Positions 2,750 to 31,928 of a stretch of DNA of 40,434 bases are shown piece by piece (position 1 is the stretch's first letter; every line of letters begins with the position of its first letter). Source of the stretch: a virus; IMG/VR virus record IMGVR_UViG_3300035670_000531, positions 1-40,434 of that record; one strand, written 5' to 3'. The notes under the pieces are model-generated. The model saw only the letters and a list, made by a program, of their open reading frames with translations, made no database searches and was not told the DNA's origin. Position numbers and translations under genes: made by a program.

Positions 2750-3195
2750 TCCTTCACCACCAACCTTCCTTTCTTGGATTCAAGTATGAATACATAATGC
2801 TCAGGTATCCAACACACTTCCACATCCTCTATCGTTGCCTGTCTTGTGATAGTGCCTTCTCCGTGGCAAGTTGGTGTATCTGGATGATAGCAGTCGCCTA
2901 TACCTTTCTCATTTGCACCACAGAGCATATGGTCATTGTATTGACACTCCTCCTCCACCCCCACCCCTTTGAGGAGTTCCTCATATTTTTTTAGTTTCTT
3001 GAAACAGTCATAATACTTAGTCGCCATTTCTGCCATATCTGCACTCAAGTCTTCAGTGAGACTAATTTCTTTATTATGTTCCTGAGAGATGAGGGCAAGG
3101 ATTTGGTCGGCAAGTATCTTCGAGTTTATAGGTTCATAAGTACAGTCCCATGAATCTACATATTTCATAATTATCTCAGCTATTTTATCTTTCAT
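2746..3195 (-). CDS. hypothetical protein with Cys/His cluster
   Basis: 149 residues. The N-terminal half is helical (MKDKIAEIIMKYVD). The middle has a run of Cys and His residues (ECQYNDHMLC, GDCYHPDTPTC) that could bind a metal. The C-terminal end is a short beta segment. The start at 3195 is favoured because GGAGGG lies four bases upstream; the frame is open five codons further. No family recognised. It overlaps its neighbours by a few bases on both sides. Confidence 0.55.
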   Translation of the reverse strand: MKDKIAEIIMKYVDSWDCTYEPINSKILADQILALISQEHNKEISLTEDLSADMAEMATKYYDCFKKLKKYEELLKGVGVEEECQYNDHMLCGANEKGIGDCYHPDTPTCHGEGTITRQATIEDVEVCWIPEHYVFILESKKGRLVVKE

Positions 3196-3326
3196 TCTCC
3201 CTCCTTCCATCCCCGATAGCGGGCGATTGCGCCATGCTTTTCGATAGTGGGCTTCGCAGATAGGCTACTTAACAACTCGCCATTTCCGTCGACGAGTGCA
3301 TGGCAACTCAGTGTTAATAATCTCAT
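3192..3326 (-). CDS. 44-residue hypothetical protein
   Basis: Short frame starting MRLLTLSCHA and ending RGWKEGE. It exactly fills the interval between two coupled genes: its ATG overlaps the preceding stop (AAATGA) and its TGA overlaps the following ATG (GAATGA). GGTGGTG lies just upstream of the start. The tight fit at both ends is the main evidence for reality; no function is visible. Confidence 0.5.
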   Translation of the reverse strand: MRLLTLSCHALVDGNGELLSSLSAKPTIEKHGAIARYRGWKEGE

Positions 3327-3502
3327 TTCACCACCACCTTCAGGTCAAACACTTTTTTCATGTCACTTACATGACCAGACCATAACACCCGTATATCCTC
3401 AAGCCCGAATCGTTCCGACTCCCAGCCCGTGTTATTATTGATAATCCAGTAAGTGTCACCGTCACGCTTCAGACTAAATTCTGGAGGGAGGCACATGGTC
3501 AT
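3323..3502 (-). CDS. 59-residue hypothetical protein
   Basis: Short frame (MTMCLPPEFS, with WIINNNTGWE in the middle and a C-terminal VFDLKVVVK). It overlaps the preceding gene by four bases and the next by four bases. The alternation of aromatic and charged residues is protein-like. No family recognised. Confidence 0.5.
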   Translation of the reverse strand: MTMCLPPEFSLKRDGDTYWIINNNTGWESERFGLEDIRVLWSGHVSDMKKVFDLKVVVK

Positions 3503-3648: not shown

Positions 3649-4889
3649 GCTATCACCTCTTCGAATTTCATTTGATTGCCATTGAATTTCAACTGAACGC
3701 TTCCGAGGCCAATGTTCCGACCCTTCGCAATATCCAGGTTGATAAAATCGGAATCAATGTCGCTGTCCCGTTCCTTGTACAGAAATATCACAATATCCGC
3801 GTCCTGTTCGATTGCTCCCGATTCCCGTAAATCGCTCAATATGGGTTTCCTGTTTTCCCTCTTCTCGACTTCCCGGTTAAGCTGGCTGAGTGCTATGATC
3901 GGTAGGTTGTGTGTCTGCGCCATGATTTTTAGCAACCGGCTAATCTCCGCCACTTCCTGCTCCCGTTTCTTCCCGTTTGAGCCCTTCGTGAGCTGCAAGT
4001 AATCAACGATTATCATTCGGCAGCCGTAGGTCTGGACCATCTGCGTTACGGTCCTCTCTATCTCCGTGCTGTTCTTCGCGGTGAAGCTGAAATACAACGG
4101 CAACTCGGCAAACCGGGATATGCCAGCCGCCACATCAGGCCAATGCTCATGGTTCAGTATCCCCTTCCGCAATCTCCATAAGTCTATCCCCGAGAGTGTC
4201 GCGAGGGTCCTTATGCCTATCTGATGCGCGCCCATTTCGATAGATATTATCCCTGTCGGTACTCCCGCATTCTCAGATATCGCCATGGCAAAGGCAGACT
4301 TACCCTGTCCGGGCCTCGCCGCTATAATTACCAGGTCCCCGTCCTGCCATCCGTCTGTCAGGTCGTCCAATGACTCGAACCCTGACGGCACACCCGATAA
4401 CGATGTATGATTCTTTACCCTTCTCTCCAAGAACTCCTGTAAGTCCTTTGCGATATCCATTGAGGCTATGATTGCCTTACCCCTTCCGTTTGCTATGTCT
4501 GCCAGCTTTGTTCTGATATTCGCCATGACCGTATCAACGGACTCGTCCTGGATATCCTGAATTGCCTGTATGCAAGCCTGACGTATCTTCCTGCGGTTGC
4601 TGTACTCCTTAACGACATCCGCATGGTAATGAATGTTTGAGGTGGTAACGATGTTGTTTATTAACCGGCTTACCTCGTGGGGCTCATGCCCCTTCTCTTT
4701 CAGCGACACATACTCTACCGGGATACCGTCTGCCACAAGCTGAAGGATGGACCGATATAATTGCCTGTGCTTCTCGACATAGAAATCATCTGCGGTTATG
4801 CTGACGGCATGGACCAGGTTGCTGTCCATGATCAGCGTACCAATAATCTGCTCCTCTGCTTCAAGGTTATGCGGGTTTATGTTCTGCAT
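3645..4889 (-). CDS. dnaB: replicative DNA helicase, DnaB family
   Basis: 414 residues, slightly shorter than cellular DnaB (about 450-470). An N-terminal helical domain begins NLEAEEQIIGTLI. The RecA-like motor shows Walker A ARPGQGKS at 191-198, Walker B IIVDYLQL at 293-300, the ALSQLNR motif at 333-339, and the DnaB signature LRESGAIEQDADIV at 354-367. It unwinds DNA ahead of the replication fork as a hexamer. The preceding gene overlaps its start by 23 bases and probably loads it at the origin. AAGGAAAGGG precedes the ATG at 4889. The family assignment is secure. Confidence 0.96.
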   Translation of the reverse strand: MQNINPHNLEAEEQIIGTLIMDSNLVHAVSITADDFYVEKHRQLYRSILQLVADGIPVEYVSLKEKGHEPHEVSRLINNIVTTSNIHYHADVVKEYSNRRKIRQACIQAIQDIQDESVDTVMANIRTKLADIANGRGKAIIASMDIAKDLQEFLERRVKNHTSLSGVPSGFESLDDLTDGWQDGDLVIIAARPGQGKSAFAMAISENAGVPTGIISIEMGAHQIGIRTLATLSGIDLWRLRKGILNHEHWPDVAAGISRFAELPLYFSFTAKNSTEIERTVTQMVQTYGCRMIIVDYLQLTKGSNGKKREQEVAEISRLLKIMAQTHNLPIIALSQLNREVEKRENRKPILSDLRESGAIEQDADIVIFLYKERDSDIDSDFINLDIAKGRNIGLGSVQLKFNGNQMKFEEVIA

Positions 4890-5622
4890 TTTCCCTTTCC
4901 TTCTTAGCCGCCTTTATCTGAGATAGCACATCGTCCTTCGGTTTGATCGTGGGAGTTATGATGGTTTTTATGGGAGTCGGTTCATCCTCCCACCGCGTCT
5001 CGTTAATCCACGTTGCAGGATTAGGAATGTATTGACCTTCCTCTTTAGTCCAGTTAACGGATTTCTTATGTTTTTCCAGTGAAAGCATGATTACCTCAAA
5101 TGTCCCGTTGTTGATTCCTTTTTTCAGCCAAGCTTTTAATGCAGCCCCCTTACCTATCTTTTTCGGGTACTCCTGCCAAAATATCTGAAAATTGTCTGGC
5201 ATGGAGGTTGCTCTTTCCTTATCCTTATCCTTATCCTTATCCTTATCCTTATCCTTATCCTTATCTGTATGGATACAGTTTGCATACTCTATCCATACCC
5301 TTTCTTTTTTTAGAATCTGTATCACACTGTTGTGCACTTTAGAGGCAGGATTGAGTTCACCGTACTGAAAATCAAGGAAATCCTTTATAAACCATTTCTT
5401 GCCGTCTTTGATTTCTATGTATTGCTTTGAGAATGCTTTTTTAATCTCTTCAATGTCCAAATCAGCTTTTATGAATATACTTGCCAGTTCAAAATCAACG
5501 TCCCATATCCCGGCATGGTCGCAAGTGTCAATCATGTACTGCCATAGGCATTTATGCACGGGATTTAACTGTCGAAACCAGGGCTTCTTCCACTTGTCGG
5601 TATCCGTCAACCTTTTTGACAC
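4867..5622 (-). CDS. replication organiser / helicase-loader-like protein
   Basis: 251 residues. The N-terminal 110 residues resemble the winged-helix domain of phage replisome organisers and DnaD/DnaT-like proteins (WFRQLNPVHKCLWQYMIDTCDHAG). The centre contains eight consecutive Asp-Lys dipeptides. The C-terminal part has FWQEYPKK and PNPATWINE, motifs often seen in phage replication proteins next to DnaB or DnaC genes. Probable role: origin recognition and loading of the helicase encoded directly downstream. Translation starts at GTG 5622, with GAGGGTGGG upstream. The charged linker is encoded by a hexanucleotide repeat that could vary in length. Confidence 0.75.
   Translation of the reverse strand: MSKRLTDTDKWKKPWFRQLNPVHKCLWQYMIDTCDHAGIWDVDFELASIFIKADLDIEEIKKAFSKQYIEIKDGKKWFIKDFLDFQYGELNPASKVHNSVIQILKKERVWIEYANCIHTDKDKDKDKDKDKDKDKERATSMPDNFQIFWQEYPKKIGKGAALKAWLKKGINNGTFEVIMLSLEKHKKSVNWTKEEGQYIPNPATWINETRWEDEPTPIKTIITPTIKPKDDVLSQIKAAKKERENAEHKPA
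5217..5264 (+). repeat. hexanucleotide tandem repeat (ATCCTT)n
   Basis: Seven perfect copies of ATCCTT preceded by a partial copy, lying inside the replication organiser gene. On the coding strand the unit reads as GAT AAG, so each copy adds one Asp-Lys pair. Perfect repeats of this length are prone to strand-slippage changes that stay in frame, altering linker length without destroying the protein. Confidence 0.95.
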
Positions 5623-10787: not shown

Positions 10788-11495
10788 CTAATCCGGGACA
10801 TAAACCAAAACTGTATAACTATTTGCACTCGATGACCTGCGCTGAACCTGAAGGCTTGAATTATATCTCAGTGGCAACGCGGCTAATCCTACCCTTGCCG
10901 CGCCAGATGATGTGTAAACAGCTCTACCGACAACTATTCGTGCAGTATAAAGTGTCCCTGCGGTATATGTCGAATCGTAAACTGTAATTCCATCAACAAT
11001 GAGATTAAACTGGCAGTTAGAGTTTGTATTGTTATTGAATTGATGAAGACAGAACACCCATCCGGAACCTGAAATATTAACAACATTGATAAGAACATCG
11101 GTAGAGTCGTTCGACACGATAAATCGGTATCCGCACTGATAATCCGTATCTATGATGTTATCGCTTCCTGAATAGTTATCCTGTTGAGGAAAACGATATG
11201 TGTCAGAAGTTCCGAGGTAAACCGAATCCGCCACTATCCCGTTTGTCTGAATCTTTATCTTTGGAATCGGTTTTACATTCGCAAGTGTTGCCGCCAGCGC
11301 ATCAGTCCATGTGGCATTAGATAAGGCCGTAGAAGCCGCTGCCCTTGACGATACCGTTGTATCCACCCTACTTGTCAGATTCGATGCGAGAGTCCCGGTC
11401 CATGTCGAAGTCGAGAGTGCCGTGGAACTCGGCGCACGGCTTGATATTGTTGCATCCAAGTATTGCTGTATTTTCGATAATATCCCTGCTAACAT
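10788..11495 (-). CDS. tail fibre-like structural protein, last gene of the late operon
   Basis: 235 residues. The N-terminal 75 residues contain two copies of a Ser/Thr/Ala-rich unit (SRAPSSTALSTSTWTGTLAS and SRAAASTALSNATWTDALAA), a repeat form seen in phage fibre and neck proteins. The C-terminal 150 residues are beta-rich with many Asn, Ser and Tyr, like a receptor-binding or trimeric head domain. AGGAGGGG precedes the ATG. The position after the gpJ-like protein and before the terminator fits a distal fibre or tip accessory. No specific family recognised. Confidence 0.55.
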   Translation of the reverse strand: MLAGILSKIQQYLDATISSRAPSSTALSTSTWTGTLASNLTSRVDTTVSSRAAASTALSNATWTDALAATLANVKPIPKIKIQTNGIVADSVYLGTSDTYRFPQQDNYSGSDNIIDTDYQCGYRFIVSNDSTDVLINVVNISGSGWVFCLHQFNNNTNSNCQFNLIVDGITVYDSTYTAGTLYTARIVVGRAVYTSSGAARVGLAALPLRYNSSLQVQRRSSSANSYTVLVYVPD

Positions 11496-12160: not shown

Positions 12161-14812
12161 TTAGAATCCCTCCACTAACCATTTGCAATCACCACCGGCC
12201 GGAACTCCTGCCGTTGAGAACAGGCATAGGTCGAATCCGATTGTCGTCAGGTTGTCGGCGCAGGCTATTCTCGGCACATTGCCGAGTGGTGTCAATATTA
12301 TCTTCTCTATCTCAAGGAATGTCGTGGTAAACACAACTGCTGCCACCCCGACACTACCACCGGAACTCGGAACGGATGCTTCTCCGAACTCTTCCTTCGG
12401 CTCACTGAATACGGTTGTATAAATGGGTCCTGACAGTATGTGCGTGGTATCGAGTGACGATGATGCAAACACGAACTTCGCCTTCGCGTATCTTCCGACT
12501 GCTGAGAACGGAACTGATGCGTCATATTCCGTGAAGATGACGTTATCAACCGAAAGACAGAGTTTTGGAGTTATGCTTGCCGTCCCGGTCCCCAGCTTCT
12601 GAGCTGAATAACTCAGCGACCACTCCCCCGATATTATCTGCCCGATATCTATTGCCGTTGTCGTGCCGTCTGCCGATGTCGGAGATGGAAGGCAGAGATA
12701 ACTGTAAGTACCTCCTACACCATCCCCGATATTCGTGCCGGGGAATCTCTCTCCGAGCGTGTCGTATGAGGCATGAATGGGGACTACGATATCACCGAGG
12801 CAGAGGGCAATGCTTGAACCCGTCATGGTCGTTACGTCAAAGAACCTGTCGTGCTGGAATGTCGAGTACGGATTCAGTGTAACAACAACATCGGCTGTCA
12901 GGGCTATCTCCGTATAACCGCCGACGCTATCCTTTGCCTTCAGGAAATACCGCCACGTTCCCCCTGGACAGTTCTTATCCGTGTAAACCAGCGCGTCGAT
13001 AAAGGCTATATATACCGCTGAGTCCCATGTGTCTGAAGTAGAACCCCGCCGTATCTCATACCCTGCTATGTCAATATCAATGGCCGGGGCTGTATAGTCC
13101 GGCATATACCATCTGAGTATGACGATGTCCCCGGCCTCTATCCCGACAAGCCCTGCCCCGTCTTTCCAAGTCGGCACAAGGTATTTGCCCTGCGGAATGA
13201 TAGTTCTCTCAACTCCGTCGCTTTTCTTATCCCAAAACGATACCGCCACTATCTTGAACGTATAGGTCGATAACTCCTGTATCGCCCTCAACTCATAGGT
13301 ATTCCCTGTCGTGATATTGATTAACTGATAATCGCCATCGTCTACCTTATACCACACCTCGAAATGTTTCAAAAATTGCCAATCCTCGTCCGTCCATGTC
13401 GCCTTGACAATCGATATCCACGTGCTGTCTTTTAACTGTGTGAGTTCCTCCGTAAGTTCAAACGTCAGGACATCGGGCGGCGTATCATCCGGATCCGGTA
13501 AGTTTGTATCGGGCCATGTTGGTTCGGTTTCGACGGTATCGCTGAAAAATGCAGGGTCGTATTCCCTCCCCTCGATGGTGAATGATCCGTCCTCGTTGGC
13601 ATCTATCTTCGTGCAGAACATCTGCTTGTTGCTCAATCCGAGACTGTGGGTCAGGTAGAAAACATCCCACGGCTGAAGTCCGTAGGAATTATGAGTGCTG
13701 AACTTCGCGAACAGGTCCGACAGCCTCATGTTGATAAGTGCCGTCGCAATCCTCTTAGCCTGTGAGAAAGAATTACACCCGGTCAGGTCATATGTTGCCT
13801 CGTGAACCTCCGCCTGATTTGTGGCAATGAGTGGGTCATCCAAGGTAGGCGCGGTTATGGTATCCCATATCTCAGGGTCGGTGTACGAATACTTTATCCG
13901 GGTTATCATGTCCTGAGACTCGACAGCCGGTATCATTAAATCCCATATCTGTTTCTTCCCGTTGTCGTCGTATTCGTCGAATGTGGCAACCGGCGACTTC
14001 GGCTTCATGGTGTGCATTGTATAGGTGCTTCTGTCCGGATAGATATTGCCGAGGAAGTGAACCTTTACGAAGTCCATGGCACTCTTGATATTTCCATCGG
14101 TGAAGCAGTAATTGAACTCATACCGCTTCTGCTGATCCGGTGATACCCCGATAAGCTCATCACAGTAATCGGCACAGCTTGCAACGCTGTTCCAATCTAT
14201 CGGACTGTTCCCGTAGTTAGGATTTGTATGAATATCCGCGAGAACAAGTGCCGGGTTCGAACTGTAGCCCGTTGAACTGTTGCGAGGGTCATAGACTTTC
14301 TTCCACTTCCCGACTGCCTCTACCGTCGGCATTTCGGTAATCCCGGTATTCATGCCGAACCGGATATAGGCATATGGGTATCCCTCCATTGCATCGGTGA
14401 AAGTCGGGTCATAATCATTAAGGCTGCAGACCGTCTGAGTGGCAGTACCTTTATAATACTCGACGGTTACATTTGAATATGTTGATACGAGTTTGCCGTT
14501 TATGAGTAATGACTCATACTCCTCCATCTCCCCTTCGCCGAATACCCATATCCCATGTATTCGTGTACTTGAAGAATGGATATCTCCAATCTGTTTCAGG
14601 TAAACGAACAATCCCTGTACCTTGCATCTTCCGTATGGTATCGGGATATACTGACCTGCCGGGGAAGCCTCCTTTGGTCTGGTCTTCGTCTGATTGTTTC
14701 TGCCATAGGTTATCTCCGTGACAGGTGACCAGATATATGGCGAGGTATAACTGCCGAATGTACCGATAGACGATGATGTGGAGGGTATCCAGCTTCCGGA
14801 TAATAGACCCAT
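12161..14812 (-). CDS. gpJ-like tail tip / host-specificity protein
   Basis: 883 residues. The first 450 residues resemble the phage tail hub of gpJ and GTA tail-tip proteins (EITYGRNNQ, IPIPYGRCKVQGL, GNIYPDRSTY, IATALINMRLSDL). Two fibronectin type III-like domains follow (from TFELTEELTQLKD to about 555 and from TWKDGAGLVGIEAGDIVILRW to about 660). The C-terminal 200 residues are beta-rich and Ser/Thr/Gly-rich, suiting receptor contact. It probably forms the central tip that contacts the cell envelope. The ATG at 14812 shares a base with the preceding stop (TAATG); an in-frame GTG ten codons upstream is less likely. Confidence 0.82.
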   Translation of the reverse strand: MGLLSGSWIPSTSSSIGTFGSYTSPYIWSPVTEITYGRNNQTKTRPKEASPAGQYIPIPYGRCKVQGLFVYLKQIGDIHSSSTRIHGIWVFGEGEMEEYESLLINGKLVSTYSNVTVEYYKGTATQTVCSLNDYDPTFTDAMEGYPYAYIRFGMNTGITEMPTVEAVGKWKKVYDPRNSSTGYSSNPALVLADIHTNPNYGNSPIDWNSVASCADYCDELIGVSPDQQKRYEFNYCFTDGNIKSAMDFVKVHFLGNIYPDRSTYTMHTMKPKSPVATFDEYDDNGKKQIWDLMIPAVESQDMITRIKYSYTDPEIWDTITAPTLDDPLIATNQAEVHEATYDLTGCNSFSQAKRIATALINMRLSDLFAKFSTHNSYGLQPWDVFYLTHSLGLSNKQMFCTKIDANEDGSFTIEGREYDPAFFSDTVETEPTWPDTNLPDPDDTPPDVLTFELTEELTQLKDSTWISIVKATWTDEDWQFLKHFEVWYKVDDGDYQLINITTGNTYELRAIQELSTYTFKIVAVSFWDKKSDGVERTIIPQGKYLVPTWKDGAGLVGIEAGDIVILRWYMPDYTAPAIDIDIAGYEIRRGSTSDTWDSAVYIAFIDALVYTDKNCPGGTWRYFLKAKDSVGGYTEIALTADVVVTLNPYSTFQHDRFFDVTTMTGSSIALCLGDIVVPIHASYDTLGERFPGTNIGDGVGGTYSYLCLPSPTSADGTTTAIDIGQIISGEWSLSYSAQKLGTGTASITPKLCLSVDNVIFTEYDASVPFSAVGRYAKAKFVFASSSLDTTHILSGPIYTTVFSEPKEEFGEASVPSSGGSVGVAAVVFTTTFLEIEKIILTPLGNVPRIACADNLTTIGFDLCLFSTAGVPAGGDCKWLVEGF

Positions 14813-15324
14813 TACTCTATCGTTATGACCATATCCCACCACGCAATCTTAGTGCCGCGTTCAGGGATATTCGGAAAGTTATATTTCGATATCATCGTGC
14901 CGGGAAACCTTGCCGTCCACGGATTCTTGTGCGGACTTACCGTGATGATTGCGAACTCCTCATTCAGTTCCGGCCTTCCATCTACCTTGCCAGTGAATAC
15001 GATTTCCGAGTCAATCTCCGTCATGGTGCTGTCGAACCAGACTTCCTCTATCGTCACATCGGCATACTTGATGGTATTGTTCAGCACCAGTGAGGCAGCC
15101 GTCAGGTCAACACTTCCGAGTTCTATCTGGCAGCCGTCCATCGTATTGGCATCGGACACTTCTATGGCAGACAGTTTTATCGGGTAATAAATATACGTCA
15201 TCCCACTGTGGTCTATTGTCTCAGGACAATCCGTAAAGCAGAAATCTCCTATGCGGATGAACCAGTAGGTCGTGACATTCGCCTTTGCCTTCTCAGCTAT
15301 TAACTGGGGACTGTAAGCCTTCAC
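14812..15324 (-). CDS. DUF2163-like tail assembly protein
   Basis: 170 residues with beta-rich segments (YWFIRIGDFCFTD, YIYYPIKLSAIEV, EIVFTGKVDGRP) resembling the DUF2163/baseplate hub family found in gene transfer agents and siphophages. It is encoded between the DUF2460-like and gpJ-like genes, as in those modules. GTG start with GAGGAG upstream; four-base overlap with the preceding gene. Cys residues near 29 and 33 might bind a metal, but the match to the lambda gpL iron-sulfur pattern is not clear. Confidence 0.6.
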   Translation of the reverse strand: MKAYSPQLIAEKAKANVTTYWFIRIGDFCFTDCPETIDHSGMTYIYYPIKLSAIEVSDANTMDGCQIELGSVDLTAASLVLNNTIKYADVTIEEVWFDSTMTEIDSEIVFTGKVDGRPELNEEFAIITVSPHKNPWTARFPGTMISKYNFPNIPERGTKIAWWDMVITIE

Positions 15325-15980
15325 GGCTGTAGCTCCTCTATTTCAAATCCCGTGGAGTACAGCAGCCGAACCATGAGGGATCGCTCGATCTCCACACTTG
15401 AGAATACGCAAGTCGGGAAGTATCTGATACCGTTAAATCGGGCCTTGATTATCCCTGTCGGTGCGGTTCCGAATACTATCTTGTCCTGGCTGTTCGTGCC
15501 TGTTCCAGTGCTTACCGAAAAATCAGCATCGGAAACGCCAGCAACCGTAATCGTTACGTTGCTCGTTCCTTTGCCTTTAAGTTCAAATGCCGTCGTGTCA
15601 CCATTGCCAGTGCCAAGGTAAACATCCGTCCAGATCTTGTCGTAGTCAGGAGTGAAGTCAAACATGGCAAACGGTTCATACCCTCCCCGTCTGTCGCAGT
15701 AGAACTCATAAAACGCACCCTCTTCGGCTGCGGTAAGTCGGGACTTGCTGAGTATCGAGATTGTATGTAGTGGACCGTAGGATGATTTCAAACGCCTCTG
15801 GGTTCCGACACGGAGTACGTCATATCTTGCCCGAATCTGCGAACCGTAGGCAATGCTGAGCGTCTCTGGCAATAGAGTGGTAGTCGGGACTACAACCGGT
15901 GGAGTTTCACCGGCCTCCCCGAAGGGTCCAACTCCGGGTATATAATCGCCTAACGTGTCGTATAACTCTTCATCACCCAT
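15321..15980 (-). CDS. DUF2460-like distal tail protein
   Basis: 219 residues. The pattern RYDVLRVGTQRRLKSSYG, then EGAFYEFYCDRRGGYEPF and PTCVFSSVEIERSL, fits the DUF2460 / gene-transfer-agent distal tail family, which forms the ring joining tail tube to tip. It starts immediately after the stop of the acetylesterase gene (TAAATG). The order DUF2460, DUF2163, gpJ is conserved in many siphophages and supports all three assignments. Confidence 0.7.
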   Translation of the reverse strand: MGDEELYDTLGDYIPGVGPFGEAGETPPVVVPTTTLLPETLSIAYGSQIRARYDVLRVGTQRRLKSSYGPLHTISILSKSRLTAAEEGAFYEFYCDRRGGYEPFAMFDFTPDYDKIWTDVYLGTGNGDTTAFELKGKGTSNVTITVAGVSDADFSVSTGTGTNSQDKIVFGTAPTGIIKARFNGIRYFPTCVFSSVEIERSLMVRLLYSTGFEIEELQP

Positions 15981-16967
15981 TTATTCCCCCAGCGTTATAA
16001 TTCCACCAGAACCAAAAGAGAAACTTCCTCCTGCCCCAATGTTTACTGTCCCCGAACTTCCTTCTCCACTTCCGATATAAGTTAGCATGGCTGTTGCCAT
16101 TCTGCCACCTAATGTTAAATGACTTGCCGCTGATATGTGATGCGTATTGACATAGGGTGTCAAATCGTCTAAATTGATATAATCAGAGTAAGATGTTGCG
16201 GTTGCTACATCGACTTGCCCACTCCTGATATATCCCATATAGGGATCGCCGACTAATGTTGAATTGACACTCCGCGCCAATATAAAGGGTAGATTCGCAC
16301 CGTATGTACTTCTTATGTCGGATATAATCTGTGTCAAGTCTGCCTCATACGCAGATTCACTACGGTGCAATAGACCATCATCTATCCCTTGATGCCATAA
16401 CATCCCCCTTATTGTGTAAGTGTTACCGCCAGCACCATACGCTGTCAATTCACTCAATCTGCTTGTGAATGCATTTATCATCGCAGTCCATTTGCTATTA
16501 GGAGAAACCCATGCTGACACTCCCCCCTCTAATGAACTGTAGTTTCCCCAAAACTTTATGACAACGATATTCCTCCATCCAGAAGCATATAACCCTCTAA
16601 TGAAACCAATCTCCGAACCGCAAACCTTATAATGGTCGCCATTTGTATCTGTAGAATATCCGTAAGAACTACCAATAGTTCCCCGTGCGTCTCCGAGGGA
16701 ATAAACTGATACTGATGCTGTCGCCGCAACCAAAGAATTTAAATCTGCTGTCTGTTGCTGTCCAAGTCCATTCAAATCTAAAATTCCTTGTCCAAGCGCA
16801 CATCGTGCAGTAGTGCAGTTACCATCACAAATACCGTCAGCCGCCGCACAATTTGATTGCCCTGCAAAGAAAAACACATTATATGAAGTTGCGAAAGCAT
16901 TGACCGGGAACAACAATAAAAATATAGAGAAAAATATATTATTCAGCAAAATTGTCCCCCAATCCAT
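15981..16967 (-). CDS. SASA-type carbohydrate acetylesterase with signal peptide
   Basis: 328 residues from ATG 16967. A hydrophobic N-terminal segment (IFFSIFLLLFPVNAFA, ending about residue 26) is a Sec signal peptide with an AxA cleavage site. The SGNH/SASA core has GQSN at 36-39 (nucleophile Ser38), GSEIGF at 117-122, WHQGIDD at 191-197 and a C-terminal His near 277 before LGGRMA. Family members remove acetyl groups from sialic acids, xylan or bacterial O-polysaccharides, so this may de-acetylate capsule or O-antigen. A TTG at 16949 with GGGGGA upstream is an alternative start; the frame also extends 59 codons upstream over the LamG gene. The tail ends in a Gly/Ser-rich strand. Confidence 0.82.
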   Translation of the reverse strand: MDWGTILLNNIFFSIFLLLFPVNAFATSYNVFFFAGQSNCAAADGICDGNCTTARCALGQGILDLNGLGQQQTADLNSLVAATASVSVYSLGDARGTIGSSYGYSTDTNGDHYKVCGSEIGFIRGLYASGWRNIVVIKFWGNYSSLEGGVSAWVSPNSKWTAMINAFTSRLSELTAYGAGGNTYTIRGMLWHQGIDDGLLHRSESAYEADLTQIISDIRSTYGANLPFILARSVNSTLVGDPYMGYIRSGQVDVATATSYSDYINLDDLTPYVNTHHISAASHLTLGGRMATAMLTYIGSGEGSSGTVNIGAGGSFSFGSGGIITLGE

Positions 16968-17730
16968 ATAGGGTTGATATCTCAGCGGATGATAAGTCCC
17001 TCGCCCATATAGCCACATCATCCAATATGCCGTCCAAGTAATGTGTTGATGACCCGTCATTACCCAATCTAAGCTGGGCAGTACCATCATAAATGCCATT
17101 TGTCCAAGACTTTGGATTGTCAGCACTGGAGTCCAATGCCCCATTTACATATACGCGGATATCGGTACCATTATAAACACAGGCAAGGTGATACCACGTT
17201 CCAGTACTTAGCGATGTGGCCCCCTTCGCAATCGTCCCCCCGCCTGCTACCCCAGTATAATTAAGCGCACACCATGCCTGCTCAGTGGCATCTACATACA
17301 TCCAATAACTTTTATTTGTCGTACTCGATTCCTTACTAATAATAAACTGGTATATTGTCCCGACTGTCTCTAATTTCACCCATGCGCTCAATGTAATATT
17401 ACCGGTGATAGACAAGGATGTAGTATCTGCCCTATACAGGTAATCTGTGTCCCCTCTTTCAAAATCCGCTGCTGCATTTGCTGAAGTAAAATGTCCATCC
17501 GCATTCACTGGAGTAGCGTTGGCAGTAAGGTCATTGCCATATCCCGATAGGTCAGTCCATGTCTCATTAGCAAGATTCCACTTGCCTCGTACTGAATCCC
17601 AAAGTGTACTTGCAGGATTGGTTATACCTCCACCACTAAATATCAAACCCGCCCCGCTCCCACCTGCATAAACCAGCGAAGGTATCAATAGTAAAATAAA
17701 AATAAACGATATTAGTTTGTATCTGACCAT
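16939..17730 (-). CDS. LamG/concanavalin-like lectin protein with signal peptide
   Basis: 263 residues. Residues 1-22 (MVRYKLISFIFILLLIPSLV then YA) form a textbook Sec signal peptide. The remainder is a LamG-type jelly roll: ITLSAWVKL, GTWYHLACVYNG, IRVYVNGALD and DDVAIW with LSSAEISTLY at the end. These domains bind glycans or act as spacers. AAGGAG lies seven bases before the ATG, so this start and signal peptide are well supported. It overlaps the fibre gene upstream by 19 bases and the esterase downstream by 29, tying the three secreted-type proteins into one set. Confidence 0.82.
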   Translation of the reverse strand: MVRYKLISFIFILLLIPSLVYAGGSGAGLIFSGGGITNPASTLWDSVRGKWNLANETWTDLSGYGNDLTANATPVNADGHFTSANAAADFERGDTDYLYRADTTSLSITGNITLSAWVKLETVGTIYQFIISKESSTTNKSYWMYVDATEQAWCALNYTGVAGGGTIAKGATSLSTGTWYHLACVYNGTDIRVYVNGALDSSADNPKSWTNGIYDGTAQLRLGNDGSSTHYLDGILDDVAIWARDLSSAEISTLYGLGDNFAE

Positions 17731-20252
17731 GTCCCACTCCTTCCTAATGTATACCAGTATGTTGCATCTTTTGCCACCAAACAGATGAAGTCGCCTGCTC
17801 CCGAAGCAGACGTTATTGAATCCCCCGCACTTAATGCTGTCCCATTAAGTACAATATAATCTGAGTTGTCTGGATTCACTACAACGGCGGCTGCCGTGGT
17901 TGAGTAAATGCAGAAACTCATGCCAGCCACCGCACCTGGAAGATTCCACGTCCCGGCCCCCGTTGCAAAAAACATCGTACCATACATTCCAGCCGTTGTC
18001 ATCTCTCCCGATGTCATTCCATTCGCATCGGAGTTTATATTCACCGCACTCTGAAACGCAATGCTTCCAGTGGAAATCATCGTCACACCCGTAGAAGTTC
18101 CAAGCGTAACGGTATTTGCCGTGCTTTCTAAGTCTATCGTCAAATCCTCATTATTACTGCCTCCTACTCCTGTGAATGTCCATTTCCCATCGGTTCCATT
18201 GGCAAAAGTCTCACCATTAGCACCCGTTACTGATGACACTGACCCTGCCGATGCCCATGTGCAGGAAGACACACCAACCGAAGGAGTAGCACAGGATAAA
18301 TATTGCCCGCCTGACGGGTCGGCATCGGGTAGTTTAAGATATAAGTCTGATGACCGAGATGTCGGACCCTGCCAACCCATGCCGTTTGTATCCGTGGAAT
18401 TGGATTCATAGAGCAATAGTTTGCCCGATACTCCTGACTGTTTTGGTATAGTTATTTCTCCCGTAGTCTCATTAATGGTGATGGGACTGTCATTGATTGT
18501 AGTCCCTGCTCCATTATAGTAAGCCAGTGCATTATCTGCGCCTGTTTCAATCGTACCTGAACCGCCGCCAGTTCCTCCCTGAAGAACCCAACTGTTAGTT
18601 GACTCACAACCGTATATCCTTTGTCCACTCGTCGCATCAGTGTCCATATAAATCTGCCCAACGGTGCAAGTCACCGGCAAGGATGTTGAGTTTGGTATTT
18701 CAAGAGTAGCACTTCCGAGGTCAAGAGCTGAGACACTTAATGTATTGGAACTGGTCCAATTCGTTCCATCGGACTTCATAATATTCCCTGACGTTGACGG
18801 ACTTGCCAGTGTATAGGCCGCCCATGAAGGATTCGCACTTGTCCCGCCTGAGAGTAACGGTTGATTCGCCGTACCTTTGGATGATAATGAACCGAGTGCG
18901 GTTGTGCTTGTCCACACTGGCAAATAATATGCCCCCGTTCCGGTTCCCGTGGGATTCCCCGATGCCGTACCTGTCAGCGGTCCAGTGAGTCCGGTTGCCG
19001 TGAGCATACCCGTGCTGGCATTGTACGTTATCCCTGCATCTGTCTTTGGTGCGAGCGTTCCAGTAGCACTCTCAAATAATGCGACATAGGAAGTCGAATC
19101 AGTTGTGTCGGATACCCCACTGATAGAACTTGCTGAACCCGCAGCCATACAAGTAAGGTCAGTACCATCTGATCCGACATATTCATTTGCAGCACATAAT
19201 GGGAAACGCGCTGTAACATTTGAACTATTGCGATAAATAATATCTCCGCGAGTTGTCATGGGATTGGTAAACCCACTCGGCAGATTTGTTATGAGCGAAC
19301 CGTCAAGGGCCGGATACTGTGCCGAGGAGTTCAACTGTACGAGCTGGGAAGCCCCGTTGAACGTATCTCCTTGATTAGTCACGGTAGATGACAACCGGGA
19401 ATCGCTCAATGTCCCAGTCGTTATGCTTGAGGCATCATATGGATTCGCCCCGCACTGCCATGCCGATGCACCCTTATTGATTATCTGATACTGGCTGCAA
19501 GACAGTCCTGCGATGGTATTGATGTCGGTATCTATTGTGCAATCCGTCTGAGCATCCCCGGAATTATCGGCACAAGTCATGGCAGCCCCGACAAAGTTCA
19601 AATTACTTCTCTGTGTCAGTGGTGTCCCGCCATATTCAACTGTTGAATAACCCGTTGCTCCGCCAGTGTCCTGGTCTGTTCCGCATGAGAATGCGTTTGT
19701 TGCCGTATTGTAGAGCAATTTATCGGATGTCCCTGCACATCCATTTGTTCCGCTTGTCGGAAGTGCGACCTCAGCAGGCTTGCTGGTTGAACTTCCTACC
19801 CATATTGAGTCGTCAGTCAATGCCATGCTATACCCGAACTCACTGAAAGCCCCTGCCGTGAAAGCATGAGTGACTTTTGACCCTGATCCCCAGTTCCCAC
19901 TGTGAGTTGTGCCTTCCTGGTTGCGAGCCTTGATAGTGAGCGTGTAAGGGCCAGTTCCGCTCACTGCCTTGACCCTGACGATTTCCCTTGCCGAGCAGTT
20001 AATGTACGATGTGCATGAACTGGAATAGACCTGAACAAGAAACTCCCCGGATGAGGGAAATGTCCCCGAATAGGTATTCAGGTCAACCGCAAAGGTGCTA
20101 TTTTCACCCTCGGCATCACTCAGGATATTCGATACGTTGATCGTCCCCCATGCGGCATTCGACCATGCAAGTGAGGCATGAACATAGTTCGGTATAAACA
20201 ATACAATGAAGCACAGTGCCATGACCGTCAATCTGATTAATCTTTTTATCAT
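17712..20252 (-). CDS. large tail fibre-like protein with signal peptide
   Basis: 846 residues. Residues 1-26 (two N-terminal Arg and Lys, then MALCFIVLFIPNYVHA) form a Sec signal peptide, with AAGGAG at ideal spacing before the ATG at 20252. The rest is Gly/Ser/Thr-rich, with repeated short beta units (GTLSDSRLSS, TTRGDIIYRNSSNVTARF, LLSGGTSANPSWAAYTLAS) typical of phage side-tail fibres built as trimeric beta helices. It follows the tape measure gene, where lambda encodes tail-tip proteins. Export of a virion protein before assembly would be unexpected, so either the signal is not used or the protein acts outside the cell. Confidence 0.75.
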   Translation of the reverse strand: MIKRLIRLTVMALCFIVLFIPNYVHASLAWSNAAWGTINVSNILSDAEGENSTFAVDLNTYSGTFPSSGEFLVQVYSSSCTSYINCSAREIVRVKAVSGTGPYTLTIKARNQEGTTHSGNWGSGSKVTHAFTAGAFSEFGYSMALTDDSIWVGSSTSKPAEVALPTSGTNGCAGTSDKLLYNTATNAFSCGTDQDTGGATGYSTVEYGGTPLTQRSNLNFVGAAMTCADNSGDAQTDCTIDTDINTIAGLSCSQYQIINKGASAWQCGANPYDASSITTGTLSDSRLSSTVTNQGDTFNGASQLVQLNSSAQYPALDGSLITNLPSGFTNPMTTRGDIIYRNSSNVTARFPLCAANEYVGSDGTDLTCMAAGSASSISGVSDTTDSTSYVALFESATGTLAPKTDAGITYNASTGMLTATGLTGPLTGTASGNPTGTGTGAYYLPVWTSTTALGSLSSKGTANQPLLSGGTSANPSWAAYTLASPSTSGNIMKSDGTNWTSSNTLSVSALDLGSATLEIPNSTSLPVTCTVGQIYMDTDATSGQRIYGCESTNSWVLQGGTGGGSGTIETGADNALAYYNGAGTTINDSPITINETTGEITIPKQSGVSGKLLLYESNSTDTNGMGWQGPTSRSSDLYLKLPDADPSGGQYLSCATPSVGVSSCTWASAGSVSSVTGANGETFANGTDGKWTFTGVGGSNNEDLTIDLESTANTVTLGTSTGVTMISTGSIAFQSAVNINSDANGMTSGEMTTAGMYGTMFFATGAGTWNLPGAVAGMSFCIYSTTAAAVVVNPDNSDYIVLNGTALSAGDSITSASGAGDFICLVAKDATYWYTLGRSGTWSDTN

Positions 20253-20262
20253 CTCAATCTCC

Positions 20263-23200
20263 TTATCTCTGTATCAATGCAGGATTTCTCCTGATTTTTC
20301 TTATTGCGTTATTTCCACCGGCCTCGACTATGCTGACTATCGCATCAGCCTTCTCACTTACATTAAACACGACTGTAACAGGCTGGTCGCCTCCCTGCTC
20401 CATCTTCGCCAATCTATCAAGTATGGCCACAAGAGCCTTATTGCCCTGCGCCGTAAGTACAGCCTCGCCTTTGTGGAGATTTGCCGTGTAGTTGTCATAC
20501 GGCACATAGTCAAGCCCCGACTGATGCGAGCCATCAATCACCTTGATTGAGTTGTTCGACAGGTCAAATCCGCCGAGCATGGAGATTATTTCGTTGTATG
20601 CCTGATTCTCACTACTGGTCAGTACCCGTTCACCCTTATGGAGATTCACAAGGTAATTGTCCCGCGGAACATATGCAAGACCCTCTGCAGCCTGTGCAAC
20701 CGAAGATGAGTTCATGGCTGATGCTGCACTGCTTGCCGCTGATGCGAGACTGCTTATAGCTGTTGCCGCCGAATCTGCCGAACCCTTCAAGGTATATAAT
20801 GGGGAGAAGTCTATCTTGCCGAGCTCTGTTTCAAGCCTCTGCAATTCCTTCTCCGTGCCTACGACTGCATCCCCGATCTTAGTAGTCATCAAGTCTTCAA
20901 CCGCATCAAGGAATGCGTTCTTGTTTTCAAGCACCGCCTTCTTTTCTTCCTCGGTGAGGCTACCCCAATACTTCTTGAAGTAGTCCATGTACTGCTCATA
21001 GAGTGCCGCCAGCTTTGTCGGGTCTGCCTCTTTCTGCATCTGATCCCACAACTCAAGCACCTTCGTATCGTAATATTGCGTTTTCTCCGCAGGCTGCATG
21101 GTGTCGAGCATCATGGATTCCTGCGTTGCCTTGATGTCAGCCGAAATCTCCGCGCTTAATGACTTTAGGTACGTCATATACTGGACAAGACTGTTATACC
21201 AATCCTGCGTAAGTGTTACTATTCCTTCCAGCTTCGTGCGGTATTCAGCACCACTGAGACTGTTCAACTCGGTAACGGCTGCAGATATGTCATTCGTCTT
21301 TTGCTGTAACTGTTCCGCATAGGATTTCATGTCAAGCGTTATCTCATCGTAGATGTCCTTGACGTTGATGTCTTTAATTGCCTGAATAGTTGTAACCGTC
21401 TGGATAAGGGATGCGACCGTATCCGTCAGCTTTTCGCCGTCCTTCTGGAACTGCGACCAATCCTGACCTGTGAGAGTCTGGATGTACTTCTTCGTCCAAT
21501 CATCAACCGCCTTCTGGAACTCCTTCTCGGTCTTGAACTTCTTGCGTCCGAACTCGAACGTCTGGTCAAATGCCGTCATGTCCGCGTTGATAGTTTCCCC
21601 GAAGTCCTTGAGTGATGTGCGGATCGCACCGAAATAATCCGTCAGGTATTTCGTTATCTTATAGTCAGGGTCAAGTTCTGAATACGATTCCTTACCCGGC
21701 TTCTTTCTTTCAAAGGCGAACCCTTCATCTGCGGTGTACTGCCCTCTCAGTTTAACCCTTGTTTCCTTGTCACCACCTCCAAAGAGTGAACCAGCCAACG
21801 CACCGAGGGCCATACCTACGATAGAACCGATTATCGGGACGAACGAACCTACCGACAGGCCAAGCATGGAAGCCCCGCCAGACAACGCACCGCCAACCAG
21901 AGAAGAACTCATTCCCAGTGCGCCGATAGTCATATGGGACAACCCTGCACCAAGTACCCCTCCAGCCGCCATGCCTGTGCCTGTATTGCCACCCACAAGG
22001 CTTCCAGCGAGCAGAGGACCGAGATACGGTATCAACCCCGGCAGACTGCTCAAAAGGCTCGCACCGCCAGCCAAGTTTGCCGTACTGCCGCCCGTCCCTG
22101 CGATTGCATTGGTAACTCCTCCAAGAGATCCGCCTACTGCCGACAAGACCACCTTGATAGGATTTGCCACTGCCATCGCCATCATGTCACTGAGCCACTG
22201 AGCGAACAATCCCTTCATCCAATCCAACGTATTCTTCCATGAGATTTTCGTATCCCCGGAAATGACATCCTTGATGTATCCCCTCATGCTGTTCATGGCT
22301 TCTTGCACTATGTCCTTGCCCCGCGCGAATCCCCAATCGAGAGTTTTCAGATATTCCCTCATGCCCTGATCCACTCCATCAGCGAATGAGGCAACCTCTT
22401 CGTACACTTCACGCTCTATCTCTATACGTTCCTTGGCAGAGTCTCTCGCTATGTCGTCAACCTTGCCGTAGTATGTCTTGGCATACCGTTCCAGCTTCTC
22501 GTATATCTTCCGCTGTTCGTCTGAACCTTCGGCATACAGTTCGGCTGTCTTGACGGCATTGTCTATCTCGGCCTTGAATTCCTCCTCCAATGCTGACAGT
22601 TTGTATTCCTTGCGCTTGTCAATCAGGTCGATCATTTTGTCATGGTATTCCTGCGGACTGACCTGTAGACGGCTGTACTGTTCCTTGAGTGCAGACTCTT
22701 CCTGTTCAATCGCATCGAGACGGGCGGCAAGTTCCTGCGAGAGTGATTCCTTAACCATATCCACTTCCATCTGCAATGATTCGAGTTTAATCTGCCTCTG
22801 CCGTGTCATCTCCTCAACCGTCAATGCTTCCCTGTCCGTTGCGCCCTGTGTCTTTATTTCCGTTATCTTGTTGTCGGCATCCCGTTCTATCTCTATCTTC
22901 TTGGCAGCCAGTGCCGCAAAGTCCTTCTCTTCCTGAACGGATATGGAAGAACGCTCCTCCGGTTTTGATGCAGCCTTCAGTCTCGCATAAAGAGCCTTTA
23001 ACTGAGATTCCCATGATGCTATCTCCGCAAGTTGCTTGTCCTTGCCTTGCTGTACCGCCTCGATCTCCTTCTGCATACTGTAGTCAATGTAGTCGACCTT
23101 CTGATCATAGGCTTCTCTCTCGGTAATCAGGCCGAGTTTCAGTGCGTTATCTATGACGGTTAACCTCTGCTTCTGCAAGGATTCCTCTTCCTTTACGGCA

Positions 23201-24576
23201 TCCGTTGCGAAGTCCTTCGCCTGGTCGAGCCGAATCTTGAATGCTTCCTTCTCGGCAGACAATATATCCTTGGCGTTCTTCTCGGCTGCAGCCAGTGCCT
23301 TCAGACTGTCGCCGATCTTACTTCCACCGGTAGCACCTCCAGTTGGAGCAGGCTCTTCTTTCTTTGCAAACTCCGGGGACACATACCCGCCAGACTTTGT
23401 GACCTTCGCCTTGCGTTCCTCAAACTCTTTGTCGTACTTTGAAAGTGTCTCACGCATGGCGGCATCCTGCGCTCTGCTAAAGGCAGCGACCGCTTCCTTG
23501 CCGAGTTCAGCAGCCTTCTTGAAATCAAAGAACAATGCAGCACCTACCGCCATCCATCCCTTTAACGCTCCCTCGGTAGTATCCGACACGACGTTCTTCA
23601 TATCGACAAGCGCATCCTTGATGCTCGGCAGTATCACGCTTCCGAGGTATGCCCAACCCTCAAAGAACCCTGTGGATGACTGAGCGTTCATCTCCCCGAA
23701 TATTGCTCCGACAAGTGAGAGTATGGACTTTAATGTCCCTTCTACACCTATCCATGCGTAGGCAAGGTCTTGCTCGATGTATTCCTTATTGTCCTTCAGC
23801 ATATTGCGGATGCTTTGGAGTGCATCGGTTATCCCTGAAACATCTATGTTGTTTATGATGAATTTGCCGAGGTCTTCTTTTAACTCACCCGCCTGAACAC
23901 TTAACTGCTGCAGCTTTTCATAGTTGCTCAGTGTAACAGGACCCATTTTGGCGGCCTGCTTCTGTGCATTCTCATAAGCAACCGACAGGAGATTTACACC
24001 CTCGACACCGGCATCCATTGCCTTCTGGATGTTCTTCGCTTCCTCCTTACTGACCAATCCCATTTTGACAAGCGACCTCGGCATCTTGTTCGCTATGGCA
24101 TCGGCAAGCTGTTCGTATGCCTCGGATACCGGAATCAGACCCTTCCGTGCCGCCACGACCGACATCTCTGCGATCTTCGTCATATCGCTGGCAGAGAGTC
24201 CCTGGGTGATGCCTTTAATTGCCTTCTGCATGAGGTCCGAGTCATCGACGGTTTCCTTCGTCAGCCGTTTCATGTCGGCAATAAGAGCCTCACCGTCTAT
24301 CCCCATCTGCTTGGTCATGGAGGAGAATGTCTCTTCCGTCTGCTGCGCCTTTGCCCCGATATCGATGTACTCAGATGCCTTGCTTATCATCCCGAATGCT
24401 GCGACAGCTGCCGCTCCGAGTGCTACCCACTTCGCCTTTAGACCACCGAGCATTGAGGAAGAACTGCTGTCAATCTCAGATGCCATCTTCTTCCCGGCAT
24501 CGGCAGTCTTGTTGAAGGCGGCTACGGCTGCAGTGCCGTCAGCATTGATGACTATCTTGACTTCGTTATCCGGCAT
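20263..24576 (-). CDS. tail tape measure protein
   Basis: 1437 residues, the longest gene. The N terminus (VKIVINADGTAAVAAFNKTA) and following helical region match phage tape measure proteins. Long charged coiled coils cover about 380-760, a Gly/Ala/Leu-rich hydrophobic region lies near 800-960, and two C-terminal units GLAYVPRDNYLVNLHKGERVL and GLDYVPYDNYTANLHKGEAVL are typical of these proteins. It sets tail length and is ejected with the DNA. It follows the G/GT chaperone pair that normally coats it. AAGGA precedes the ATG; the start overlaps the T frame by 11 bases. Confidence 0.95.
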   Translation of the reverse strand: MPDNEVKIVINADGTAAVAAFNKTADAGKKMASEIDSSSSSMLGGLKAKWVALGAAAVAAFGMISKASEYIDIGAKAQQTEETFSSMTKQMGIDGEALIADMKRLTKETVDDSDLMQKAIKGITQGLSASDMTKIAEMSVVAARKGLIPVSEAYEQLADAIANKMPRSLVKMGLVSKEEAKNIQKAMDAGVEGVNLLSVAYENAQKQAAKMGPVTLSNYEKLQQLSVQAGELKEDLGKFIINNIDVSGITDALQSIRNMLKDNKEYIEQDLAYAWIGVEGTLKSILSLVGAIFGEMNAQSSTGFFEGWAYLGSVILPSIKDALVDMKNVVSDTTEGALKGWMAVGAALFFDFKKAAELGKEAVAAFSRAQDAAMRETLSKYDKEFEERKAKVTKSGGYVSPEFAKKEEPAPTGGATGGSKIGDSLKALAAAEKNAKDILSAEKEAFKIRLDQAKDFATDAVKEEESLQKQRLTVIDNALKLGLITEREAYDQKVDYIDYSMQKEIEAVQQGKDKQLAEIASWESQLKALYARLKAASKPEERSSISVQEEKDFAALAAKKIEIERDADNKITEIKTQGATDREALTVEEMTRQRQIKLESLQMEVDMVKESLSQELAARLDAIEQEESALKEQYSRLQVSPQEYHDKMIDLIDKRKEYKLSALEEEFKAEIDNAVKTAELYAEGSDEQRKIYEKLERYAKTYYGKVDDIARDSAKERIEIEREVYEEVASFADGVDQGMREYLKTLDWGFARGKDIVQEAMNSMRGYIKDVISGDTKISWKNTLDWMKGLFAQWLSDMMAMAVANPIKVVLSAVGGSLGGVTNAIAGTGGSTANLAGGASLLSSLPGLIPYLGPLLAGSLVGGNTGTGMAAGGVLGAGLSHMTIGALGMSSSLVGGALSGGASMLGLSVGSFVPIIGSIVGMALGALAGSLFGGGDKETRVKLRGQYTADEGFAFERKKPGKESYSELDPDYKITKYLTDYFGAIRTSLKDFGETINADMTAFDQTFEFGRKKFKTEKEFQKAVDDWTKKYIQTLTGQDWSQFQKDGEKLTDTVASLIQTVTTIQAIKDINVKDIYDEITLDMKSYAEQLQQKTNDISAAVTELNSLSGAEYRTKLEGIVTLTQDWYNSLVQYMTYLKSLSAEISADIKATQESMMLDTMQPAEKTQYYDTKVLELWDQMQKEADPTKLAALYEQYMDYFKKYWGSLTEEEKKAVLENKNAFLDAVEDLMTTKIGDAVVGTEKELQRLETELGKIDFSPLYTLKGSADSAATAISSLASAASSAASAMNSSSVAQAAEGLAYVPRDNYLVNLHKGERVLTSSENQAYNEIISMLGGFDLSNNSIKVIDGSHQSGLDYVPYDNYTANLHKGEAVLTAQGNKALVAILDRLAKMEQGGDQPVTVVFNVSEKADAIVSIVEAGGNNAIRKIRRNPALIQR

Positions 24577-30455: not shown

Positions 30456-31178
30456 TTATTCCCGTTTCATCCACATACGCACGAAATCGATGTGCAATGT
30501 CCCGACTCCTGTGCCGGTTTCCTTGTGAACCATGAAGAACGGCTGTAGTCTCAATGCGGCAACTGTACTCATGTCGAATGTCGTACCCGTCGCTACCCTT
30601 GAACCGTTTACATAGAACTTCACATCGGTTATGGTCGAGCAGTCAATCCTGACTATTGCCCAATCGGATGCGGTGAGTGTCGTCCCGGTAGTTACTCCGT
30701 TGTTATCGTCTGTCGTGTCATCGGTGAATATCTTCAGCACTCCGCTTCCGTCAAAGCAGAAGAAGATATGCTCGGCTGGTCCTGCGTCATCCTCGGCTAT
30801 CGGGCCTTCCACATAATCCCCGGCAAGGCCGAAGTATATCTCTGCCTGATCCGTAGGAAGAACTGCCGGTTTAATCCTCGCCTCGAAGCACAATCCCTGA
30901 TTGAGTGTCCAGTTCCGCATATCCCCGGCATAGATACCTGCTTCCTGCTTCTCGTCCGTAGCACTCAATGACAGGACGCATATGCCGCCATTGCCGTCAT
31001 CCACGACTGCCTCAGACCCGCCTGCGGTATCCTTCAATGTCCATCGTATGGTGGCATCAATAGACTGTCCGAGGAAGTCTTCTTCGAACTTGACAGGAGA
31101 TACCGCCAGCACCCTCTCATGTGTCACATCGTCGTAGAAGGTAAGTATGTCGTTAGGCCAACTTCCTCTTGTGGTCAT
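30456..31178 (-). CDS. LamG/concanavalin-like structural protein, copy 1
   Basis: 240 residues. After about 30 unique residues, a jelly-roll domain (GIYAGDMRNWTLNQG, LAGDYVEGPIAEDDAGPAEH, DVKFYVNGSRVATG) ends HIDFVRMWMKRE. More than half the residues match the neighbouring gene at 31191-31928, so the pair arose by tandem duplication. Position among head genes suggests a capsid decoration, head fibre or neck whisker, perhaps binding glycans. GGGAGGT precedes the ATG. Function inferred from fold and place. Confidence 0.65.
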   Translation of the reverse strand: MTTRGSWPNDILTFYDDVTHERVLAVSPVKFEEDFLGQSIDATIRWTLKDTAGGSEAVVDDGNGGICVLSLSATDEKQEAGIYAGDMRNWTLNQGLCFEARIKPAVLPTDQAEIYFGLAGDYVEGPIAEDDAGPAEHIFFCFDGSGVLKIFTDDTTDDNNGVTTGTTLTASDWAIVRIDCSTITDVKFYVNGSRVATGTTFDMSTVAALRLQPFFMVHKETGTGVGTLHIDFVRMWMKRE

Positions 31179-31190
31179 TTATACCTCCCG

Positions 31191-31928
31191 TTATGCCCTG
31201 TTCTGGTATATCCGGACATAATCAACATACAGAGTGCCAACGCCTGTACCAGTTTCCTTGTGAGCTATGATAAACGGCTGCAGTTGAAGTGTAGGAGTAG
31301 CATTTACTGAGTGAGTGGTTGCAGAACCGACACGACTTCCATTGATGTAGAATTTAACGTCTGTCGGATCAGCGCAGTCGATCTTACAGACCGCCCAATC
31401 AGTGTTGAGAAGAGTTACACCAGTTGCCGTAGCATCTGTGTCGGTAGTACCGTCATCGGTAAATAACAATACTGCTCCGCTGCCATCCAGACAGAAAAAT
31501 ATGTGTTCTGCCGGACCGGCATCTGCTTCCGAGATCGGTCCCTCGACGTAATTGCCAGCGAGACCAAAGTAAAGTTCTGCTTGACCAGTAGGGAGAACGG
31601 CAGCCTTTATGCGAGCCTCAAATACAACACCCTGATTGAGGGTCCAATGGCGAACATCATTCGCATATATACCTGCTTCCTGTTTCTCATTGGCATTCGT
31701 AAGCGTAAGAGCAAAAACACCGTTTGCCGCATTCGCAACCAATGCCTCCGTAGCTGCACCGGTATCTTTGGCTGTCCAGTTGTGTGTCGAATCATAAGCC
31801 TGCCCTATGAAGTCATCATAGAAAACGACATCTGCTACAGGAAGAACTGTCTCATTGCTGTTTGCACTATCAAAAAAAACTAACCGCTGCCCCTGACCGC
31901 TATACTTTCCCTGAATCTTTGTACTCAT
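31191..31928 (-). CDS. LamG/concanavalin-like structural protein, copy 2
   Basis: 245 residues, paralogue of the next gene. Shared segments include EKQEAGIYA, HWTLNQG, YFGLAG, YVEGPI, ADAGPAEHIFFC, KETGTGVGTL. The N-terminal 30 residues differ (MSTKIQGKYSGQGQRLVFFD), so each copy may attach to a different partner. GAGGT precedes the ATG, and the start overlaps the Cys-rich gene by 29 bases. Likely a virion surface protein. Confidence 0.65.
   Translation of the reverse strand: MSTKIQGKYSGQGQRLVFFDSANSNETVLPVADVVFYDDFIGQAYDSTHNWTAKDTGAATEALVANAANGVFALTLTNANEKQEAGIYANDVRHWTLNQGVVFEARIKAAVLPTGQAELYFGLAGNYVEGPISEADAGPAEHIFFCLDGSGAVLLFTDDGTTDTDATATGVTLLNTDWAVCKIDCADPTDVKFYINGSRVGSATTHSVNATPTLQLQPFIIAHKETGTGVGTLYVDYVRIYQNRA

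Follow-up and report, generated by a model that had tools for sequence, protein, structure and literature searches.

The prevailing view is that tailed phages build their adhesins in the cytoplasm, and the lack of a signal peptide has even been counted in favour of a variable protein having come from a phage (PMC6199706). Bdellovibrio bacteriovorus exports its mosaic adhesive trimer (MAT) proteins, which resemble phage fibres and bind glycans of the prey (PMC10769870), and phages of Porphyromonas gingivalis (the proposed Nixviridae) carry signal-peptide genes of unknown function that follow the Q-rule (PMC10367356), that is, the presence of Gln at position +1 in substrates of the Bacteroidetes signal peptidase (PMC5837995, PMC10653852). 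Export of unexplained phage proteins is thus known (PMC10367356), and we found no description in the literature of exported fibre clusters such as the one considered here.

The stretch of DNA that we analysed, hereafter the window, is the 40.4-kb record of an uncultured siphovirus. The minus strand carries its structural genes, in the order terminase, portal, protease-capsid, major tail protein, tape measure, a trio of genes (fibre, LamG lectin and SASA esterase), DUF2460-like, phiJL001 gp84-like and J-like (Table 1).

Table 1. Coordinates of the trio, its predicted signal peptides and the flanking tail genes
Feature	Position	Strand	Details
Tape measure protein	20263..24576	-	Weak PF09718 match, size and position; marks the late tail operon
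Fibre-like protein, 846 aa	17712..20252	-	AGGAG ribosome site; NPMTTxGDIIY fibre module
Predicted Sec signal peptide of fibre, residues 1-26	20175..20252	-	MIKRLIRLTVMALCFIVLFIPNYVHA; rule-based prediction
LamG/concanavalin-like lectin, 263 aa	16939..17730	-	Pfam PF13385, E=3.4e-28; predicted signal peptide at residues 1-22
Predicted Sec signal peptide of LamG protein	17665..17730	-	MVRYKLISFIFILLLIPSLVYA; rule-based scan
SASA-type carbohydrate O-acetylesterase	15981..16949	-	Pfam PF03629, E=9.3e-15; likely start TTG 16949
Predicted signal peptide of esterase, weaker	16890..16949	-	MLNNIFFSIFLLLFPVNAFA; n-region without positive charge
Tail-tip genes: DUF2460-like, phiJL001 gp84-like hub, J-like protein	12161..15980	-	Directly downstream of the trio

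The initial annotation had proposed that three consecutive tail-region genes each encode a Sec signal peptide. A scan of the roughly 47 window genes, rule-based rather than by SignalP and allowing alternative starts, confirmed this for these three only, with scores of 9.0 (fibre), 9.4 (LamG) and 7.3 (esterase). Among the other 44 or so genes, only one match exceeded 4, and it began 41 codons within the tape measure gene; the three tail-tip genes gave none. Given three hits among 47 genes, the probability that they adjoin is 0.003. In the fibre and LamG genes, strong ribosome sites precede a start that is directly followed by a positive n-region, a hydrophobic h-region and an AxA-like c-region, in line with the ribosome sites and AxA-type ends of the initial annotation; cleavage is predicted between MIKRLIRLTVMALCFIVLFIPNYVHA and SLAWS (VHA/SLA) in the fibre, and between MVRYKLISFIFILLLIPSLVYA and GGSGA (VYA/GGS) in the LamG protein, whose gene carries AGGAAGGAG. 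The weaker start suspected for the esterase is probably the TTG, which is preceded by GGGGGA, overlaps the LamG stop and gives MLNNIFFSIFLLLFPVNAFA followed by TSYNV (AFA/TSY). Its signal peptide is the weakest of the three because the n-region has no K or R; the catalytic domain starts directly after the predicted cleavage site. The listed start of this reading frame at 17144 is an artefact, and the alternative ATG at 16967 lacks a ribosome site. We take the three signal peptides to be real as sequence features, and the products are very probably exported.

The LamG protein scored 99.2 bits against the Laminin_G_3 profile (curated cut-off 27.6), with 4qvs as its nearest PDB sequence (E=6e-10), and the esterase scored 55.3 bits against the SASA profile (cut-off 24.8) with the GQSN, WHQG and HHIS motifs present, placing each in its family. 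The fold of each product (lectin, O-acetylesterase and fibre) suggests work on glycans. Searches of the phage collection returned no relatives of the esterase or, as single-protein queries, of the fibre, and no useful match came from querying with the J, terminase or LamG protein singly; plasmid matches to the esterase were distant Thioclava sialate esterases. A signal-peptide protein from a Falkowbacteria (CPR) genome is 27% identical to mature residues 248-476 of the fibre. Elsewhere in the window, two genes beside the capsid gene (30456-31178 and 31191-31928) have similar N-terminal regions, carry no signal peptide and may encode glycan binders on the capsid side; the first shares with the LamG protein a match to PHROG 3545, in its own case a weak one.

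The trio is tightly packed into the late tail operon. A gap of 10 bases separates the tape measure gene from the fibre gene, the genes of the trio overlap by 19 bases (fibre/LamG) and 11 bases (LamG/esterase), and the start of the DUF2460-like gene abuts the esterase stop. Three Roseobacter phages with terminases 41-43% identical to that of the window (CRP-406, CRP-811 and CRP-821) have the tail-tip genes immediately after the tape measure gene; the trio is therefore an insertion at that point. Its GC3 of 0.35-0.45, compared with 0.52-0.63 for most of the backbone, suggests that it was acquired fairly recently, as a module; low values also occur in the fibre gene after J (0.40) and in one capsid-side gene (0.41). 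In a scan for promoter-like and terminator matches, counts were near those of shuffled sequence, with no clear promoter for the trio itself. The window contains no tRNA and has no close relative that would point to a host.

The same composition could point to genes of the host envelope or host adhesins that still serve the host, as a moron would. Bacterial chromosomes do encode signal-peptide proteins with the same fibre modules, and Bdellovibrio MAT is itself a family of exported, phage-fibre-like trimers (PMC10769870). However, deviant composition is frequent in fibre genes, promoter-like sites occur at about the shuffled rate, the trio is translationally coupled with the tape measure and tail-tip genes, and the closest relative of the fibre C-terminus lies in a podovirus: a signal-peptide protein of 815 aa that shares 59% identity with it over the last ~150 residues (145), with an Hc3 head-closure gene nearby. 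We therefore regard this origin as improbable, and the suggestion of host-acquired envelope genes made in the initial annotation fits poorly with genes coupled inside a late tail operon whose fibre has relatives in phages.

Cysteine content offers evidence of export that is independent of the signal peptides and, for the window alone, of moderate weight. The 16 Cys of the mature fibre form eight neighbouring pairs, as expected of a protein oxidised in the periplasm, with predicted disulfides that include 54-60 and 146-164 in mature numbering; in a permutation test against random placements the summed within-pair distance gave P=0.002, and a second, stricter pairing statistic gave P=0.11. Within-window controls gave 0.86 for J (14 Cys), 0.63 for the major tail protein, 0.09 for the capsid protein and 0.17 for the terminase, and the tape measure protein has no Cys. 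The mature LamG protein has two Cys; the esterase has five (P=0.04), four of which cluster after the catalytic GQSN motif. Beyond the window, Cys fall in clear pairs in L120, L152, L169 and L176, and in G028, a podovirus-type genome with an Hc3 head-closure gene, Cys make up 2.8% of the exported cluster and 0.45% of the remaining structural genes (P=5e-11). Some pairing also occurs in fibres without a signal peptide. Signal-peptide fibres were enriched in Cys in a first motif set (P=0.009) and not in a second (P=0.59), partly because several of the latter are Bacteroidetes-like and Cys-free. Among chromosomal signal-peptide proteins with a phage fibre module, those from Cytophagales and other Bacteroidetes (L237, L240, L242 and L244) are Cys-poor and one from Bacteriovoracaceae (L246) has six close Cys pairs. 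Separately, contig IMGVR_UViG_3300033808_000078 (L479) holds a J-like frame (2124-3440) with a very Cys-rich N-terminus, MGCDTCTTYCLDYPPPPPPCSVCDMAC, and near it a gene (4340-5563) resembling a radical-SAM enzyme (NCNLACSYCFNWG), a possible case of tail-tip protein modification.

Signal peptidase preferences provide a further line. Four Bacteroidetes-type phages (L115, L116, L315 and L321) have Ala or Gly followed by Gln at the cleavage site of most signal peptides in the tail region, in agreement with the Q-rule of that phylum; the pattern as applied is also present in 40 of 1524 background genes. The mature ends in the window (SLA, GGS and TSY) do not follow the Q-rule.

These observations bear on whether the hydrophobic N-termini might instead be uncleaved cytoplasmic segments, for instance with a role in packing fibres on the tail, or in part a product of how the starts were chosen. 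The esterase segment carries no positive charge, and cleavage is a prediction from sequence. Structure prediction, advised for the fibre in the initial annotation, was run with AlphaFold on single sequences, and the models (pLDDT 35-37) were uninformative and discarded, giving no help against this reading. The n/h/c organisation, the VHA, VYA and AFA ends and the strong ribosome sites of two genes nonetheless argue against it, as do the paired Cys, the unrelated signal peptides found in different phages and the Q-rule sites of Bacteroidetes-type phages, and we judge it very improbable.

To place the trio among phages at large, viral contigs were scanned for two fibre motifs independently of signal peptides. 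Thirteen of 123 distinct fibres with complete starts (~10%; both motif scans) passed the signal-peptide rule, L176 falling narrowly below it. Genes next to signal-peptide fibres themselves had a signal peptide in 16 of 55 cases, against 9 of 374 beside other fibres (P=5.5e-10); with the window and L010 excluded, the figures were 12 of 43 (28%) and 9 of 374 (2.4%; P=4.7e-8). Across 80 capsid relatives (673 genes), strong signal peptides were confined to three (L397, L399 and L469), all among the nearest by capsid identity. None of 25 terminase relatives had a LamG domain, and the tail regions read in 20 of them and in three Roseobacter phages contained no comparable run of signal-peptide genes. 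The tail genes read in four cultured phages that share modules with the exported fibres (PfAn1, Cy-LDV1, Tenacibaculum JQ and Leeuwenhoekiella Arctus_1) had no clear signal peptides. Such genes are absent from two cultured Bacteroidetes phages whose tail is related, and the search turned up no cultured phage that both carries them and has virion proteomics.

Looking for the same trio in related phages, as had been advised, drew a blank among terminase relatives, but a similar run appeared in an unrelated podovirus from Manatee Spring (L010), where a fibre, a LamG protein, a GH28 protein and a Collar-domain protein have signal peptides, the annotated GH28 start differing from the signal-peptide start. 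In L399, among the closest relatives by capsid protein (46%), the signal-peptide product is a spike with PHROG tail-fibre matches and a sequence that looks pectate-lyase-like by eye. The exported protein of G029, encoded beside a tape measure gene, has a gp53-like C-terminus, and its signal peptide is fused to an N-terminal domain known from ordinary fibres. That N-terminal domain is common to the fibres of the Roseobacter phages CRP-406, CRP-811, CRP-821 and CRP-831 and of cyanophage MED4-117, which have no signal peptide and begin at the G029 cleavage point. Together with the podovirus relative of the window fibre, which retains the signal peptide as well as the C-terminal domain, L399 and G029 link the trait to tail adhesins. 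A GH108 endolysin with a signal peptide (L378, 5742-6392) shares a cluster with the exported fibres of G029. Signal-peptide fibre clusters, as judged from these gene sequences, are not unique to the window phage and recur in unrelated phages; therefore some phages probably finish or use adhesins outside the cytoplasm.

From the coding organisation, the signal-peptide-like N-termini, the domain identities, the paired Cys and the recurrence in other phages, we infer actual export, cleavage and disulfide formation. We consider it reasonably likely that the trio is a late-expressed, Sec-exported kit for glycan binding and deacetylation, oxidised in the periplasm. It would be an export cassette embedded among the late tail genes and translated along with virion proteins; host Sec would carry the products across the inner membrane, host signal peptidase I would cut them, and the periplasm would oxidise them, above all the fibre. 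There the fibre and lectin could bind glycan and the O-acetylesterase deacetylate it. Once the envelope opens, the fibre may meet virions and attach, and the lectin and esterase may bind and trim surface glycans of the host and host debris.

Loading onto virions at lysis and action in trans have about even odds. The operon position favours the former, suiting virion parts better than early exclusion factors, and so do the virion-type cargos of other phages, which are adhesins and depolymerases (Collar and GH28 in L010, the gp53-like C-terminus and conserved ordinary-fibre domain in G029, the tail-fibre-like spike in L399). Action in trans is favoured because the lectin and esterase each consist of a functional domain with hardly anything beyond the signal peptide, and have no recognisable virion-attachment domain, and because a separate fibre-like gene without a signal peptide lies after J (10788-11495). 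Taken to its extreme, this would mean that the products never act on virions: the fibre and lectin would coat the infected cell or its neighbours and the esterase strip O-acetyl groups, masking or destroying the receptor, for superinfection exclusion or to keep progeny off debris. The Porphyromonas phage genes have likewise been proposed to modify the host surface (PMC10367356), but the typical virion adhesins exported by other phages and the late location count against a purely trans role, which we find doubtful. The exported glycan-binding and deacetylating set of the initial annotation is thus upheld by signal peptides, paired Cys and clustering in unrelated phages, while its non-virion part sits uneasily with those cargos.

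More tentatively, sipho-, podo- and probably myovirus-type phages, scattered but widespread, might pass fibres and depolymerases through Sec, give them periplasmic disulfides or pyroglutamate ends and attach them to virions no earlier than lysis. Export of fibres and depolymerases would mean either an extracytoplasmic step in virion assembly or a release of surface-active adhesins and enzymes before lysis; both would matter for host range, for superinfection and for efforts to find depolymerases, and the clusters supply a defined gene list for testing.

Lambda Lom, a lysogenic-conversion outer-membrane protein, is, like the trio, encoded by a signal-peptide gene among tail genes, but it is a membrane barrel, unlike a fibre, lectin or esterase. 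The Nixviridae genes resemble the trio in being carried by phages and in encoding Sec signal peptides that fit the signal peptidase of the host; they belong to another host group, are not described as tail-region fibre or depolymerase clusters and lack Cys evidence. The Roseobacter and MED4-117 fibres share repeat modules with the exported fibres, besides the G029 N-terminal domain; such ordinary fibres start where their exported relatives are cleaved, and those with the NPMTT motif are mostly Cys-poor. By analogy, we regard the Bdellovibrio MAT family as the closest described analogue. MAT proteins have a conserved ~130-aa domain after the signal peptide and many carry S74, whereas the window fibre has no Pfam match of any kind and so no S74 domain; MAT genes are chromosomal in a predatory bacterium, whereas the window fibre gene is part of the late tail operon of a phage, next to lectin and esterase genes. 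What the two have in common, here as predicted from the genes, is a glycan-binding fibre of the phage-tail-fibre kind that carries a signal peptide and works outside the cytoplasm.
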